Origin: a virus
Strand: one strand, 5' to 3'
Virus record (IMG/VR): IMGVR_UViG_3300008267_006819
Coordinates: 1 to 22,166 of that record
Length of the DNA: 22,166 nucleotides
Position numbers and translations under genes: made by a program. The notes below the pieces were generated by a model. That model had not been told where the DNA came from. It did not search any database and saw only the letters and a program-made list of their open reading frames with translations. This document shows, in pieces, positions 2 to 21,527 of this stretch (positions within the stretch are counted from its first letter, which is position 1; each line of letters starts with the position of its first letter).

Positions 2-853
2 CGATGGTTCCAAGATTATGCACGAACTTCTGGGAGTAGGGTTAATTATCAGTCCGTTGGTTCTGGTGCTGGTGTTCGTCAATTCATTGCGGGCACAGTT
101 GACTTCGGAGCAAGCGATGAACCTATCAAAGCATCAGAAGCAAAGCAAGTAAAGCGTGGTGTTGTTCAAATTCCTATGGTTGGTGGAACGATTGCCGTTG
201 CTTATAATAAATCAGGTTGCAAACTGAAACTGACTCAAAAGCAAACTGTTGATATTTTTATGGGTCGCATCAACGACTGGAAGCAAGTTGGTTGTGCTGC
301 TGGAAAGATAGTGACCGTTCATCGTTCTGACGGTTCTGGTACTACCTTTGCCTTCACTAACTCTCTGGATGCTTTCGGTGGTTGGGCTCCTGGTGTTGGT
401 AAGTCTGTAAAGTGGCCTGTTGGTGTGGGTGCCAAGGGCAACGAAGGAGTCTCTGGAACCATCAAGAACACTCCTGGTGCCATTGGTTACGTGAACACGG
501 GATTTATTCGTGCTAACAAACTTCAAGCAGCGGTTCTTCAAAACAAAGCAGGTAAGTTTGTCGGACCTTCTGCTGTGACTGGTGCTGCTGCTCTCAATGG
601 TATCACTCTGGATGCAAATCTTGCTGGTGAAAACCCTAACCCATCTGGCACTAATGCATATCCTATTTCTACTCTGACTTGGATTCTTGCTTATAAGACT
701 GGAAATGGTGCTAAGACGAATGATATTCGTGCTGCTCTAAATTATGCCCTAAGTTCTAATGCACAAATGATTGCTGATGATTTGGGTTATGTTCCTCTTT
801 CGGGTAGTATCCTTAATAAAGCACGTATTGCTGTCAACAGAATCGGTAACTGA
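2..853 (+). CDS. pstS: Phosphate ABC transporter substrate-binding protein PstS (5' end missing)
   Basis: The reading frame is open from base 2 and ends at TGA 851-853, so 283 C-terminal residues are present; the signal peptide and first lobe are cut off by the window edge. PstS binds phosphate in the periplasm and hands it to the PstCAB importer. Visible family motifs are SVGSGAGVRQF and TVDFGASD near the start of the visible part, and the phosphate-binding RSDGSGTT. Cyanophages commonly carry pstS as an auxiliary gene thought to keep up phosphate uptake in infected, P-limited hosts. The stop codon is followed 10 nt later by a terminator hairpin, so pstS is the last gene of its transcript. 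Its promoter and any Pho box lie outside the window. Confidence 0.95.
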   Translation, partial: RWFQDYARTSGSRVNYQSVGSGAGVRQFIAGTVDFGASDEPIKASEAKQVKRGVVQIPMVGGTIAVAYNKSGCKLKLTQKQTVDIFMGRINDWKQVGCAAGKIVTVHRSDGSGTTFAFTNSLDAFGGWAPGVGKSVKWPVGVGAKGNEGVSGTIKNTPGAIGYVNTGFIRANKLQAAVLQNKAGKFVGPSAVTGAAALNGITLDANLAGENPNPSGTNAYPISTLTWILAYKTGNGAKTNDIRAALNYALSSNAQMIADDLGYVPLSGSILNKARIAVNRIGN

Positions 854-863
854 TATACATATG

Positions 864-887
864 GGGGGTTGACAAAATCCCCTTTTT
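864..887 (+). terminator. Rho-independent terminator of pstS
   Basis: A 7-bp stem (864-870 with 876-882, one G-U pair) closes a 5-nt loop, GACAA, and is followed directly by five T residues (883-887). The -35 box of the next promoter straddles the stem and loop. Confidence 0.75.
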
Positions 888-897
888 GATGTATTAT
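869..897 (+). promoter_or_regulatory. Sigma-70-type promoter embedded in the pstS terminator
   Basis: TTGACA (869-874), a 17-bp spacer and TATTAT (892-897) match the housekeeping consensus closely. The -35 box overlaps the hairpin loop of the terminator. The first downstream start codon is at 919, so the untranslated leader would be about 15 nt and contains AGGAG at 911-915. Confidence 0.8.
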
Positions 898-918: not shown

Positions 919-1122
919 ATGTCTCTTATTTCCCAACGCGATAGAGAAGTTACTATAACTGTCTTTAATCATTATGTTGATTTTCTTTCGAGTGAAATCG
1001 AATTCTTTGAGAATGAAGAAATGTTTGATGATACTGACTACCTAAACTATAAGTCAGAAATCACAGAAGTTTATGCACTTCTTAATTGGGTAAAACTGGA
1101 ATATTTCAAGAATGAAAATTAA
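919..1122 (+). CDS. Hypothetical small acidic protein (67 aa)
   Basis: I do not recognise this protein. It is 67 residues, rich in Glu, Asp and aromatic residues, with no membrane segment or cysteine motif, and looks like a small soluble helical protein. The start is supported by AGGAG a few bases upstream and by the strong promoter at 869-897. Its TAA overlaps the start of the next small gene (ATG at 1112), which suggests translational coupling. Small genes of this kind are usual in the early-expressed parts of T4-like cyanophages. Confidence 0.75.
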   Translation: MSLISQRDREVTITVFNHYVDFLSSEIEFFENEEMFDDTDYLNYKSEITEVYALLNWVKLEYFKNEN

Positions 1123-1316: not shown

Positions 1317-1748
1317 ATGTTGTTAGAAGCAACTTGCTTAAACTGCAAAACTTTTTTTAAGTATAATCCTTACCATAAAAAGGGAAAATACTGCAGTAAT
1401 CAGTGTCAGCAAGACCATAATAAAACCTTATATATAACAGAATGGAAACAAGGATTAGTCTCTGGGGGAAAGTCTTATAACCTTTCTCAATATGTAAGAA
1501 ACTATCTTATTGAAGATGCTGGCAATAAATGCTCTAAATGTGGTTGGAGTGGTGTTAATATCCATACCGGAAGAACACCATTAGAAATAGACCATATTGA
1601 TGATGATCCATTTAACCATTCTCCAAATAACTTACAGGTATTGTGTCCTAACTGCCATTCGTTGAAAACACAACCGCCACAAAAAAGTAAGGGTGGTAGA
1701 TATAAAAATGGCACACATCCTAAATATGGGCGAATAGCTCAGCGGTAG
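1317..1748 (+). CDS. HNH endonuclease with N-terminal zinc-finger-like Cys pairs
   Basis: This 143-residue protein carries a C-terminal HNH domain: Cys72/Cys75, the core LEIDHIDDDP with the catalytic-type Asp92-His93, Asn104/Asn105, and Cys110-x2-Cys113-His114 as zinc ligands. The N-terminus has another Cys set (CLNC at 7-10, CSNQC at 26-30), a small zinc-binding fold seen in many free-standing phage HNH nucleases. Such enzymes cut or nick DNA and often act as homing endonucleases in T4-like phages. It follows a late promoter word. The last six codons and the stop lie inside the tRNA-Val gene (overlap 1728-1748). The family is clear; whether it homes, and to what target, cannot be told from sequence. 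Confidence 0.88.
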   Translation: MLLEATCLNCKTFFKYNPYHKKGKYCSNQCQQDHNKTLYITEWKQGLVSGGKSYNLSQYVRNYLIEDAGNKCSKCGWSGVNIHTGRTPLEIDHIDDDPFNHSPNNLQVLCPNCHSLKTQPPQKSKGGRYKNGTHPKYGRIAQR

Positions 1749-1800
1749 CAGCGTCTGCTTTACACGCAGAATGTCGGGGGTTCGAATCCCTCTTCGCCCA
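1728..1800 (+). tRNA. tRNA-Val (anticodon UAC)
   Basis: The cloverleaf reads clearly. The acceptor stem pairs GGGCGAA (1728-1734) with TTCGCCC (1793-1799), and the discriminator is A1800. The D arm is GCTC-AGCGGTA-GCAGC. The anticodon stem TCTGC/GCAGA encloses the loop TTTACAC with anticodon TAC at 1761-1763, and the T arm is GGGGGTTCGAATCCC. CCA is not encoded. The HNH gene runs into its 5' part, and a late promoter word starts 3 nt after its 3' end. Confidence 0.96.
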
Positions 1801-4710: not shown

Positions 4711-4823
4711 TTTTTCACATTGTAGAGGTACTTGCTGCAAGTCCAGTCTGGTTGGGACTTTGTGGGGCAGGCTTGACAGTTGCCCCGATTATGGGTATAA
4801 TGCTTATACACCGAAATAAATAA
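4707..4823 (+). CDS. Membrane miniprotein (38 aa)
   Basis: ATG 4707 overlaps the previous stop (ATGA) and has GGGGAG just upstream. The 38-residue product is hydrophobic nearly throughout (VEVLAASPVWLGLCGAGLTVAPIMGIMLI) and ends HRNK, as expected for a single-span membrane peptide. A perfect promoter for the downstream tRNA lies inside it (4773-4801), so this stretch may serve two roles or be coding only by chance. Confidence 0.5.
   Translation: MIFHIVEVLAASPVWLGLCGAGLTVAPIMGIMLIHRNK
4773..4801 (+). promoter_or_regulatory. Perfect sigma-70-type promoter before tRNA-Pro
   Basis: TTGACA (4773-4778), 17 bp, TATAAT (4796-4801) is an exact consensus match inside the small membrane-peptide gene and 30 nt before tRNA-Pro. 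The -35 box also sits in the loop of a GGGGCA/TGCCCC hairpin (4764-4769 with 4781-4786); there is no T tract after this one. Confidence 0.75.
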
Positions 4824-4831
4824 CGGTGTGA

Positions 4832-4905
4832 CGGGGTGTAGCGCAGTTTGGTAGCGCATCCGCTTTGGGAGCGGGAGGTCGTAGGTTCGAATCCTATCAC
4901 CCCGA
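4832..4905 (+). tRNA. tRNA-Pro (anticodon UGG)
   Basis: The acceptor stem pairs CGGGGTG (4832-4838) with CACCCCG (4898-4904), and the discriminator is A4905. The D arm is GCGC-AGTTTGGTA-GCGC. The anticodon stem TCCGC/GCGGG closes the loop TTTGGGA with TGG at 4866-4868, and the T arm is GTAGGTTCGAATCCTAT. CCA is not encoded. Confidence 0.96.
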
Positions 4906-4929: not shown

Positions 4930-4958
4930 TTGACACAAAAGTCTTAAACCCTTATAAT
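4930..4958 (+). promoter_or_regulatory. Perfect sigma-70-type promoter
   Basis: TTGACA (4930-4935), 17 bp, TATAAT (4953-4958) is an exact consensus match in the gap between tRNA-Pro and the gene at 4981, giving a leader of about 16 nt. It should drive the three genes 4981-5697. Confidence 0.85.
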
Positions 4959-5469: not shown

Positions 5470-5697
5470 ATGTCTAAAACAAGTATCCTGAGATACATTG
5501 GCAACTTTCTCCTCTTACTTGGTTATCAAATCATGTTATGGGGAGATTTTAAAAACGGTTTGATCATTAAGTTTATTGGAGGACTACTCGGTATTCCTTT
5601 TGCTATCAAACTCAAACTTTGGGATGTGCTATTTTTAATCGCATTCTTTGGTATCACCGAAATATCAAAGTTAACCCAACTTTTCTTGGTTTCGTAA
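5470..5697 (+). CDS. Small integral membrane protein (75 aa)
   Basis: The 75-residue product has two to three hydrophobic stretches: about residues 8-24 (RYIGNFLLLLGYQIMLW), 31-46 (LIIKFIGGLLGIPFAI) and 50-72 (LWDVLFLIAFFGITEISKLTQLF). It should be a small inner- or thylakoid-membrane protein. It is third in the operon from the 4930 promoter, 28 nt after the preceding stop. Its stop codon lies in the loop of an 8-bp hairpin (5685-5704). Function unknown. Confidence 0.7.
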   Translation: MSKTSILRYIGNFLLLLGYQIMLWGDFKNGLIIKFIGGLLGIPFAIKLKLWDVLFLIAFFGITEISKLTQLFLVS

Positions 5698-5717
5698 AAC
5701 CAAGTGGTGGAGTCAAA

Positions 5718-5732
5718 ATGACCCTGTTATGA
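5718..5732 (+). CDS. Possible 4-codon leader ORF
   Basis: ATG ACC CTG TTA TGA follows GGAG at 5709-5712 with a 5-nt spacing, a good ribosome site. Its stop overlaps the ATG of a second leader ORF at 5729. It may be chance; it matters only if the leader acts as an attenuator. Confidence 0.2.
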   Translation: MTLL

Positions 5733-5800
5733 GTTTCCAATCTCTCTCAAGGATTGGTGGTGCGGATGGGACTCTCTCCCGCCTAGTTTCTTGCTTCTAG
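5729..5800 (+). CDS. Possible 23-aa leader peptide in the attenuator region
   Basis: ATG 5729 overlaps the stop of a four-codon ORF (ATGA) and opens 23 codons starting MSFQSLSRIGGADGTLSRLV, rich in Ser and Leu. The frame runs through the CCAATC/GATTGG hairpin and the competing antiterminator strand, so a ribosome moving along it would change the leader fold. It could equally be a remnant of a lost gene. Confidence 0.25.
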   Translation: MSFQSLSRIGGADGTLSRLVSCF

Positions 5801-5834
5801 TCAAAGAGCAAGTGGCGAGCCTGCAATACTGAGC

Positions 5835-5863
5835 AAGAGAGGTTGCATAAACCTCTCTTTTTT
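5835..5863 (+). terminator. Strong Rho-independent terminator before gmd
   Basis: AAGAGAGGTT (5835-5844) pairs perfectly with AACCTCTCTT (5850-5859) over 10 bp, around the 5-nt loop GCATA. A run of T follows (5858-5863). It separates the small-gene operon from the glycan cluster. Confidence 0.88.
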
Positions 5864-5871
5864 AGTATAAT
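5843..5871 (+). promoter_or_regulatory. Promoter of the glycan cluster, embedded in the terminator
   Basis: TTGCAT (5843-5848), with the loop at its core, is followed after 17 bp by a perfect TATAAT (5866-5871). The start codon of gmd is at 5891, so the leader would be about 12 nt. The -35 box is weaker than in the other promoters here. I found no further clear promoter in the gaps of the next 15 kb. Confidence 0.65.
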
Positions 5872-5890: not shown

Positions 5891-6892
5891 ATGAAGGTTG
5901 CATTAATCACTGGTATTACAGGACAAGATGGATCATATCTTGCTGAACTTCTTTTGGAAAAAGGTTATGAAGTTCATGGTATTATTCGTCGTTCTTCGTT
6001 AATTAATACTCATCGTATTGACCATTTGTATCAAAATGTTAAGTTACATTACGGAGACTTAACAGACTCTACTAATATAGTAAGAGTTATACAAAAAGTC
6101 CAACCTGATGAAATTTATAATCTTGGTGCTCAGAGTCACGTTAAAGTATCCTTTGAGATGCCTGAATACACTGCTGATGTGGATGGTGTGGGAACTCTCC
6201 GTATTCTTGAAGCAGTCCGTCTCTTGGGTATGGAAGACCGTGTACGCATCTATCAGGCATCTACAAGTGAACTCTATGGATTAGTTCAGGAAACCCCACA
6301 AAAGGAGACTACACCCTTCTATCCTCGCTCTCCATATGGTGTGGCAAAACTTTATGGGTATTGGATTACAAAGAATTATCGTGAGGCATATGGAATGTAT
6401 GCTTGTACTGGTATTCTTTTTAATCATGAAAGTCCCCGTCGTGGTGAGACATTTGTTACCCGCAAGATTACTCAGGCACTTTCTAAGATTTCTGTTGGAC
6501 TTCAAGATGTTCTTGAACTGGGCAATCTAAATGCAAAACGTGACTGGGGACATGCCAAAGATTTTGTGGAAGCAATGTGGTTGATGCTTCAGCAAGATGA
6601 ACCAGAAGATTATGTGATTGCTACTGGAAAACAGTACTCTGTTCGTGAGTTTGTAGAAGAAGCAGCACCTTATTTTGGTATGCAAATTACATGGAGAGGT
6701 GAGGGATTGGATGAGATTGGATATGATATTTTCAGTGGAAAAGAGGTTATCCGAGTCAATCCTAAATATTTTCGACCTGCTGAAGTAGAAACCTTATTAG
6801 GTGATGCCACTAAGGCAAAGGAAAAACTAGGTTGGGAACCTAAGATTTCTTTTAAACAACTTGTTGAGGATATGTGCATTTATGGACAGTGA
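5891..6892 (+). CDS. gmd: GDP-mannose 4,6-dehydratase
   Basis: Gmd converts GDP-D-mannose to GDP-4-keto-6-deoxy-D-mannose with bound NADP(H), the first committed step to GDP-L-fucose. It is a cytosolic extended short-chain dehydrogenase. The protein is 333 residues with the cofactor motif TGITGQDG (7-14), LGAQSHV (78-84), the active-site strand STSELYG (124-130), the catalytic pair Tyr149-x3-Lys153 (PRSPYGVAK) and the family motif [17 protein letters not shown] start at ATG 5891: the longer frame begins with 16 residues that lie across the promoter -10 box and do not fit the family N-terminus. It overlaps fcl by 11 nt and leads the glycan cluster. The GDP-mannose substrate probably comes from the host. 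Confidence 0.96.
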
Positions 6893-20853: not shown

Positions 20854-20875
20854 GCATTTATACATATCATTTTGT

Positions 20876-20902
20876 AAGGGGGCTTGACGCCCCTTTATTT
20901 TT
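20876..20902 (+). terminator. Rho-independent terminator of the glycan cluster
   Basis: An 8-bp stem (20876-20883 with 20889-20896, one G-U) closes the 5-nt loop TTGAC and is followed by ATTTTT. It marks the 3' end of the 15-kb glycan transcript. The loop doubles as the -35 core of the next promoter. Confidence 0.8.
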
Positions 20903-20912
20903 GCTATATAAT
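20884..20912 (+). promoter_or_regulatory. Sigma-70-type promoter of the hli-petF operon, embedded in the terminator
   Basis: TTGACG (20884-20889), 17 bp, TATAAT (20907-20912). The first five bases of the -35 box are exactly the terminator loop. The hli start codon is at 20940, about 20 nt past the expected transcript start. Confidence 0.8.
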
Positions 20913-20939: not shown

Positions 20940-21134
20940 ATGACTGTAACTACTAATGAACTTGGGCAACAAAATATGTTTGCCAAAGAACCTGTGATGT
21001 ATTATGAGAACTATGGGCAACTGACTCCCAATATGGTAAAGGAGAGAACTAATGGACGCTGGGCTATGGTCGGTTTTGTTGCTGGGATCATTTCTTATGT
21101 TAGCACTGGCAACTTCTTCTTCGGCATCTTCTGA
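20940..21134 (+). CDS. hli: High-light-inducible protein (Hli/Scp)
   Basis: Hli proteins are single-span thylakoid proteins that bind chlorophyll and carotenoid and protect photosystems from excess light. The 64-residue product has a soluble N-terminus of about 33 residues and then the chlorophyll-binding helix ERTNGRWAMVGFVAGIISYV (35-54) with Glu35, Asn38 and Arg40 in the ExxNGR pattern. It ends TGNFFFGIF. ATG 20940 is chosen because it is the first after the promoter; an in-frame ATG at 20901 would lie in the promoter. Phage hli genes are common in marine cyanophages and likely keep photosynthesis running during infection. Confidence 0.93.
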   Translation: MTVTTNELGQQNMFAKEPVMYYENYGQLTPNMVKERTNGRWAMVGFVAGIISYVSTGNFFFGIF

Positions 21135-21170: not shown

Positions 21171-21234
21171 GACTTCTGTTGCCTTCTTCATATTGTTGGC
21201 AGCATCCGTAGAAAAACTTTGTGAAACTTACTAA
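21148..21234 (+). CDS. Membrane miniprotein between hli and petF (28 aa)
   Basis: ATG 21148 to TAA 21232-21234 encodes 28 residues with one hydrophobic segment ([20 protein letters not shown]) and a short charged tail (EKLCETY). It is linked to petF by TAATG. Its size and shape recall small photosystem or cytochrome b6f subunits, but I could not match it to PsbT, PsbN, PsbM, PetN, PetG, PetM or PsaM from memory. Its place in a photosynthesis/redox operon suggests a thylakoid-membrane role, which is inference. Confidence 0.55.
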
Positions 21235-21527
21235 TGGCAACTTATAACGTTACTCTTCAATCCCCTGACGGCACCGAACAAACTATTCAGTGCCCTGATG
21301 ACCAATACATCCTTGAAGCAGCAGAAGAAGCAGGAGTAGATCTCCCTTCATCGTGTAAAGCAGGTGCTTGTTCTGCTTGTGCCGGTAAACTGATCAGCGG
21401 CACTGTGAATAACGAAGAACAATCTTTCCTAGATGATGATCAACTTGCAGAAGGTTGGGTGCTCACCTGTGTTGCTTATCCTACCAGCGACTGTGTGATC
21501 CTCACTGAGCAGGAAGAAAACCTGTGA
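21234..21527 (+). CDS. petF: Plant-type [2Fe-2S] ferredoxin
   Basis: This ferredoxin carries electrons from photosystem I to reductases and, in cyanophages, possibly to phage bilin reductases or ribonucleotide metabolism. The 97-residue protein has the full cluster motif: Cys41, Cys46, Cys49 ([15 protein letters not shown]) and Cys79 (WVLTCVAYP), with the acidic surface usual for the family and an [10 protein letters not shown] stretch. It starts with TAATG and overlaps the next gene as GTGA. Length and motif are normal for photosynthetic ferredoxins, so it should be functional. Confidence 0.96.

Follow-up and report, generated by a model that had tools for sequence, protein, structure and literature searches.

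The window analysed here, 22,166 bases long, covers an IMG/VR record in full and derives from a T4-like cyanophage, a relative of Synechococcus phage S-SRM01 (Kyanoviridae); viruses of this group infect cyanobacteria of the sea and of lakes. Its genes include pstS, 6-phosphogluconate dehydrogenase, a high-light-inducible-type gene, ferredoxin and a sugar operon headed by GDP-mannose 4,6-dehydratase (GMD). At three gene boundaries, a putative intrinsic terminator overlaps the predicted promoter of the next gene, with the -35 box positioned in or across the loop of the hairpin, an arrangement termed the module below. The features concerned are the following:

2..853, + strand: pstS-like phosphate-binding protein, upstream of site 1 (phrog_5385, E 1.6e-119; 5' end off the window)
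864..882, + strand: putative terminator hairpin of site 1, GGGGGTT-GACAA-AATCCCC, 7 bp, loop GACAA, T tract 883-887
869..897, + strand: predicted promoter of site 1, TTGACA 869-874, 17 bp, TATTAT 892-897
919..1122, + strand: small ORF (MSLISQRD...) downstream of site 1, no PHROG match
4930..4958, + strand: consensus promoter TTGACA-17-TATAAT without a hairpin
5729..5826, + strand: wcaG RNA (RF01761), 101.6 bits, E 8.1e-19, above the Rfam gathering score of 42
5835..5859, + strand: putative terminator hairpin of site 2, AAGAGAGGTT-GCATA-AACCTCTCTT, 10 bp, loop GCATA, T tract to 5863
5843..5871, + strand: predicted promoter of site 2, TTGCAT 5843-5848, 17 bp, TATAAT 5866-5871, kept in relatives even without the hairpin
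5891..6892, + strand: GDP-mannose 4,6-dehydratase, first gene of the sugar operon (phrog_540, E 9e-107; annotated relatives)
20875..20897, + strand: putative terminator hairpin of site 3, TAAGGGGGC-TTGAC-GCCCCTTTA, 9 bp, loop TTGAC, T tract 20898-20902
20884..20912, + strand: predicted promoter of site 3, TTGACG 20884-20889, 17 bp, TATAAT 20907-20912
20940..21134, + strand: high-light-inducible-type protein (MTVTTNELGQQNMFAKEP...), first gene past site 3 (from the translation; hli named from the annotated S-SRM01 neighbour order)
21234-21527: ferredoxin, after the hli-type gene (phrog_844)

Three tRNA genes are also located in the window (1728-1800, 2734-2819 and 4832-4905); an HNH endonuclease ORF (1317-1748) overlaps the first, and a consensus promoter (4773-4801) lies just 5' of the third. 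An open frame running from 21837 to the window end at 22166 matches the high-light-inducible family over its first 35 residues and peroxiredoxin over the remainder, possibly reflecting a fusion or a wrong start.

At all three sites, a T tract comes directly after a stable G+C-rich hairpin of the same strand, the configuration of an intrinsic terminator. In a blind scan of both strands of the window, these are the only + strand intergenic terminator-like hairpins with a strong T tract, and the T tract is absent from the reverse strands of the three sites. The RNA folding energies are -12.6, -14.4 and -15.3 kcal/mol for sites 1, 2 and 3, corresponding to z-scores against shuffles of -2.1 (modest), -4.1 and -3.7. 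The predicted promoters have the sigma70 layout, their spacers falling in the usual range of 16-18 bp and their hexamers being kept in relatives at the pstS and GMD boundaries. The -35 box of site 2, TTGCAT, is weak (3/6), and its backing comes from conservation in relatives only. A GMD start at the listed TTG 5843 was rejected; the position falls inside this -35 box. The site 1 promoter is proposed to drive the small ORF at 919..1122, in whose family the module is present at 20 of 21 promoter sites. The initial annotation had described three such overlaps with 17-bp spacers at unrelated boundaries. All three are present, each with a spacer of 17 bp, against 0 in 200 whole-window dinucleotide shuffles; the boundaries are indeed unrelated in gene context (pstS/unknown ORF, wcaG RNA/GMD and glucosyltransferase/hli), as are the stem sequences. 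What it had missed is the wcaG RNA beside site 2 and the ability of each half of the module to exist without the other.

The recurrence of the module was followed in 320 viral loci collected with four queries (pstS, GMD, ferredoxin and DNA polymerase), the scanned set comprising 330 sequences and 4.46 Mb, including pieces of Syn9 and S-SRM01. The commonest terminator loops in this set include GCATA, CTTGA, GACAA, TGAC and TTGAC, all of which are parts of TTGCATA or TTGACA plus neighbouring bases. Among 866 distinct promoter-like sites, 85 lie inside a hairpin with a T tract, compared with 0.46 expected when the flanks and spacer of each promoter are shuffled. After clustering, the -35 starts concentrate at loop offsets -2 to +1 and not at other hairpin-to-gene offsets. 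Clustering of promoters by DNA similarity merged all modules, the module itself being common to them, and was replaced by clustering of the downstream proteins. The families share descent, so the sequence counts exceed the number of independent events; at the family level, the module is found in 9 of 171 downstream-gene families, and the figure is 6.6 against 0.06 when a single member is drawn at random from each.

The geometry was measured on hairpins picked blind to the -10 box. The loop holds a -35 core in 238 hairpins, and a -10 box lies at most 26 nt from the arm in 221 of them. In the latter, the -35 to -10 spacing is 17 bp in 202 cases, 18 in 8 and 16 in 3, while the gap from the hairpin arm to the -10 box varies from 4 to 13 nt. 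The promoter geometry is thus held independently of the stem: the predicted promoter is the ruler, and the hairpin is fitted round it. Control hairpins without a -35 core show TATAAT at scattered distances (173/606). The downstream ORFs start at a median of 27 nt past the -10 box, as a short leader requires and compatible with a transcription start about 7 nt after it. TTGCAT is the commonest loop core, yet a poor -35 box, and in some loci (L334, L386) the loop core is kept and the -10 box has decayed.

Related arrangements occur in the same set. Before tRNA genes in L188 (about 4870) and L248 (about 5130), hairpins enclose TTGACA and are followed by TATAAT; they have no T tract and so may not be terminators. 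Downstream of pstS in L066, L085, L088 and L055, the -35 box (TTGACT/TTGACA) is situated in the 3' arm of a hairpin rather than in its loop, and TATAAT lies further downstream.

In eight whole genomes of T4-like cyanophages, the -35 box lies in the loop at 21 of 171 terminators, against 2.7 expected from other offsets. The count per genome is seven in S-SKS1, four in S-SRM01, three in P-SSM2, two each in S-PM2, P-SSM4 and DSL-LC03, one in S-RSM4 and none in Syn9; some of these 21 modules have weak boxes, and single cases are not to be over-read. The comparison set consists of T4, KVP40, T5, SPO1, FelixO1, two podovirus and one siphovirus cyanophages, 400 kb of WH7803 and 80 cyanobacterial loci. 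Here the module occurs at 1 of 367 terminators, with 4.5 expected (Fisher test against the cyanophages, 2e-10). Among the genomes compared, the module is restricted to T4-like cyanophages. The scan against shuffled controls suggested initially for this group thus gives a strong enrichment. Chance overlap, with promoters and terminators crowding into the short gaps of AT-rich, compact genomes, is extremely improbable: the two elements do occupy the same short gaps, and consensus scans do pick up coding sequence, for example TTGACTGCACCCGCAATCGGTTGATATAAT where psbA ends, but the -35 peak at the loop, the 85 modules against 0.46 expected and the lack of any excess in the compact T4, T5, SPO1 and KVP40 genomes speak against it.

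The psbA 3' end (S-PM2 136594, S-SRM01 209760) itself bears a promoter-like match, TTGACTGCACC...GGTTGATATAAT, which is at least partly coding and misleads consensus scans. A second promoter-like peak about 40 nt upstream of the hairpins includes this coding 3' end, and was therefore set aside as a probable homology artefact. The late promoter ATAAATA is also placed directly after terminators in cyanomyovirus genomes, with 17 occurrences in the first 20 nt past the arm of cyanophage terminators against about one in each later 10-nt bin.

The stems of the modules change while their pairing is retained. In 26 distinct TTGCATA modules, 98.7% of the stem pairs are standard and six of nine pairs are changed on both sides, a level of pairing equalled by none of 500 shuffles and abolished by sliding the arms. 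The loop, TTGCATAAA, is invariant in these modules and the -10 box nearly so. At the pstS boundary of the relatives, TTGAC is likewise enclosed by differing stems. The reading of the module as a shared design, not a copied repeat, is supported by the 33 versions of its inner arm, by compensation between changes in the stem and by the several gene families that it precedes; no sequence common to the copies, as expected of a copied repeat or mobile element, was found. The two halves also occur separately. Upstream of GMD, four loci (L059, L165, L169 and L131) carry a TTG-type -35 box with TATAAT at 17 bp and have lost the hairpin; elsewhere, L049 and L067 carry the hairpin without the promoter. 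The predicted terminator and promoter are hence two superposed elements rather than one motif.

Repressor sites, too, are classically laid out as an inverted repeat around a -35 box, and the palindrome could be an operator bound by a dimeric regulator that controls the promoter. This is very improbable, as the 33 inner arms differ with compensatory changes and have no arm sequence in common, the T tract is always on the downstream side, and the hairpins of sites 2 and 3 fold far better than shuffles, that of site 1 only modestly better.

Judged from these sequence patterns, each site is most likely a functional intrinsic terminator that lies on top of the next operon's sigma70-type promoter. 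In this arrangement, the -35 hexamer stands between the two arms, the spacer of 17 bp is taken up by the 3' arm with the T tract, and the -10 box comes next. A polymerase arriving from upstream would transcribe the hairpin and halt in the T tract, and a polymerase at the module promoter would start about 7 nt past the -10 box, beyond the hairpin. The new transcript would then lack the hairpin, allowing termination and initiation, both predicted, to operate without conflict. The terminator and promoter can share DNA because the loop is the sole part of the hairpin that needs no partner. Adjacent operons would plausibly be insulated in this way within about 35 bp. The module promoters are probably early and used by the host RNA polymerase. 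Rho is not known from cyanobacteria, so dependence on intrinsic terminators is to be expected, and the module would offer a simple rule by which T4-like cyanophages pack operons in hosts without Rho.

The superposition could also couple the two operons, the polymerase freeing its RNA at the T tract, staying on the DNA and restarting at the promoter beneath, so that upstream transcription would feed the downstream operon. After termination in vitro, E. coli RNA polymerase remains on the DNA, slides and restarts at nearby promoters in 37-55% of terminations (PMC6978380, PMC6978322), and here the distance between terminator and promoter is zero. Against this, pausing of a polymerase in the T tract would also block the promoter, and such coupling appears quite improbable. 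As natural zero-distance pairs of terminator and promoter, the modules could nonetheless be used to probe polymerase recycling.

Compared with known systems, the module resembles an ordinary intrinsic terminator in its G+C-rich hairpin of 6-10 bp, short loop, T tract and position just after a stop codon; it differs in that the loop is constrained to the -35 hexamer and the T tract lies within the promoter spacer. A T4-type late promoter abutting a terminator likewise fuses a terminator and the next promoter in the T4-like cyanophages, but it has no -35 box and hence leaves the loop empty. In phage N4, the virion RNA polymerase uses hairpin promoters in which the DNA hairpin itself is recognised. 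These too have a hairpin within the promoter, whereas in the module only the RNA hairpin would matter for the proposed function. The predicted host-type sigma70 (early) promoters of T4-like cyanophages also combine a TTGACA-like box and TATAAT 17 bp apart, 5' of phage genes (Sullivan et al. 2010, PMC3037559). In the available part of that text, promoters and terminators are predicted separately and their overlap is not mentioned; the module is unlike the promoters described there in that its -35 box sits in a terminator loop. No earlier account of a terminator loop that holds a -35 box was found in the open literature searched, which does not prove that none exists. Knowledge of the module should improve promoter and terminator annotation for a very abundant virus group.

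At site 2, the hairpin begins 8 nt past the wcaG RNA, which Weinberg et al. (2010, PMC2864571) put forward as a candidate riboswitch of exopolysaccharide and high-light genes. A set of 135 wcaG RNAs with distinct downstream sequence was assembled from viral contigs by an exact core pattern and from loci fetched with GMD, a selection that may favour one clade. Downstream of these RNAs, a hairpin with a T tract is found in 122 of 135, a promoter-like site in 116 (12 expected from shuffling) and the complete module in 110, with a spacing of 17 in 108 of the 110. The distance from the wcaG core to the hairpin start is nearly fixed (median 16 nt, 10th-90th percentile 13-19, 110 cases), and the genes downstream of the modules belong to 16 families, mainly sugar genes. 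On the other side, a median of 61 nt separates the wcaG core from the end of the nearest long ORF upstream. Only 9 of 124 wcaG RNAs have, in the 420 nt before them, a promoter-like site that could serve the RNA itself.

The nearest predicted promoter of the downstream gene is therefore 3' of wcaG in 110 of 135 cases, and the RNA and the gene would share a transcript only by read-through. The position of the sugar gene's own predicted promoter calls into question the role of wcaG as the 5' leader of that gene. The RNA and its neighbours, exopolysaccharide genes and cyanophages, are of the same types as those of Weinberg et al. (PMC2864571), where wcaG is described as regulating the next gene; here a putative terminator and a fresh predicted promoter intervene in those 110 cases. 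The wcaG RNA would accordingly form the end of the upstream operon, from which the terminator and new promoter separate the sugar gene. In the window, the promoter at 4930..4958 would start a transcript that passes through the wcaG RNA and ends at the site 2 terminator. This terminated transcript would bear the RNA, and GMD would start at its own promoter 3' of wcaG.

A riboswitch with its expression platform presents an alternative for modules of the site 2 type: a ligand would decide on read-through into the sugar operon, and the promoter would serve as a bypass in another phase of infection. The near-fixed distance between the wcaG core and the hairpin in the 110 cases and the standing of wcaG as a riboswitch candidate favour this reading. 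It is unlikely, though by no means negligible, since sites 1 and 3 have the module and no wcaG, as do three relatives upstream of GMD (L116, L139 and L146), and no convincing antiterminator was identified. Pairing of the wcaG RNA with the terminator arm, tried as an antiterminator, scores 16.70 for the arm's own RNA and 16.27 for swapped RNAs, an excess that is too small and that relatedness could give.

With the module read as a terminator superposed on a promoter, the wcaG RNA may be the 3' end of the upstream transcript rather than the 5' leader of the sugar genes. Together, wcaG, terminator and promoter may constitute a composite boundary element that determines how the phage turns on its sugar genes, whether through a terminated RNA or through a read-through switch backed by a bypass promoter; this reading is quite possible, if somewhat short of probable. 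It would alter the working model of wcaG, an orphan riboswitch candidate since 2010. The RNA also seems to extend further 5' than the Rfam model: 95 of 124 cases have TGGTGGAG or TGGTCGGGA elements in the preceding 110 nt. In the window, this upstream extension (5690-5728) appears as a further GUUUC-stem-GUGG unit.
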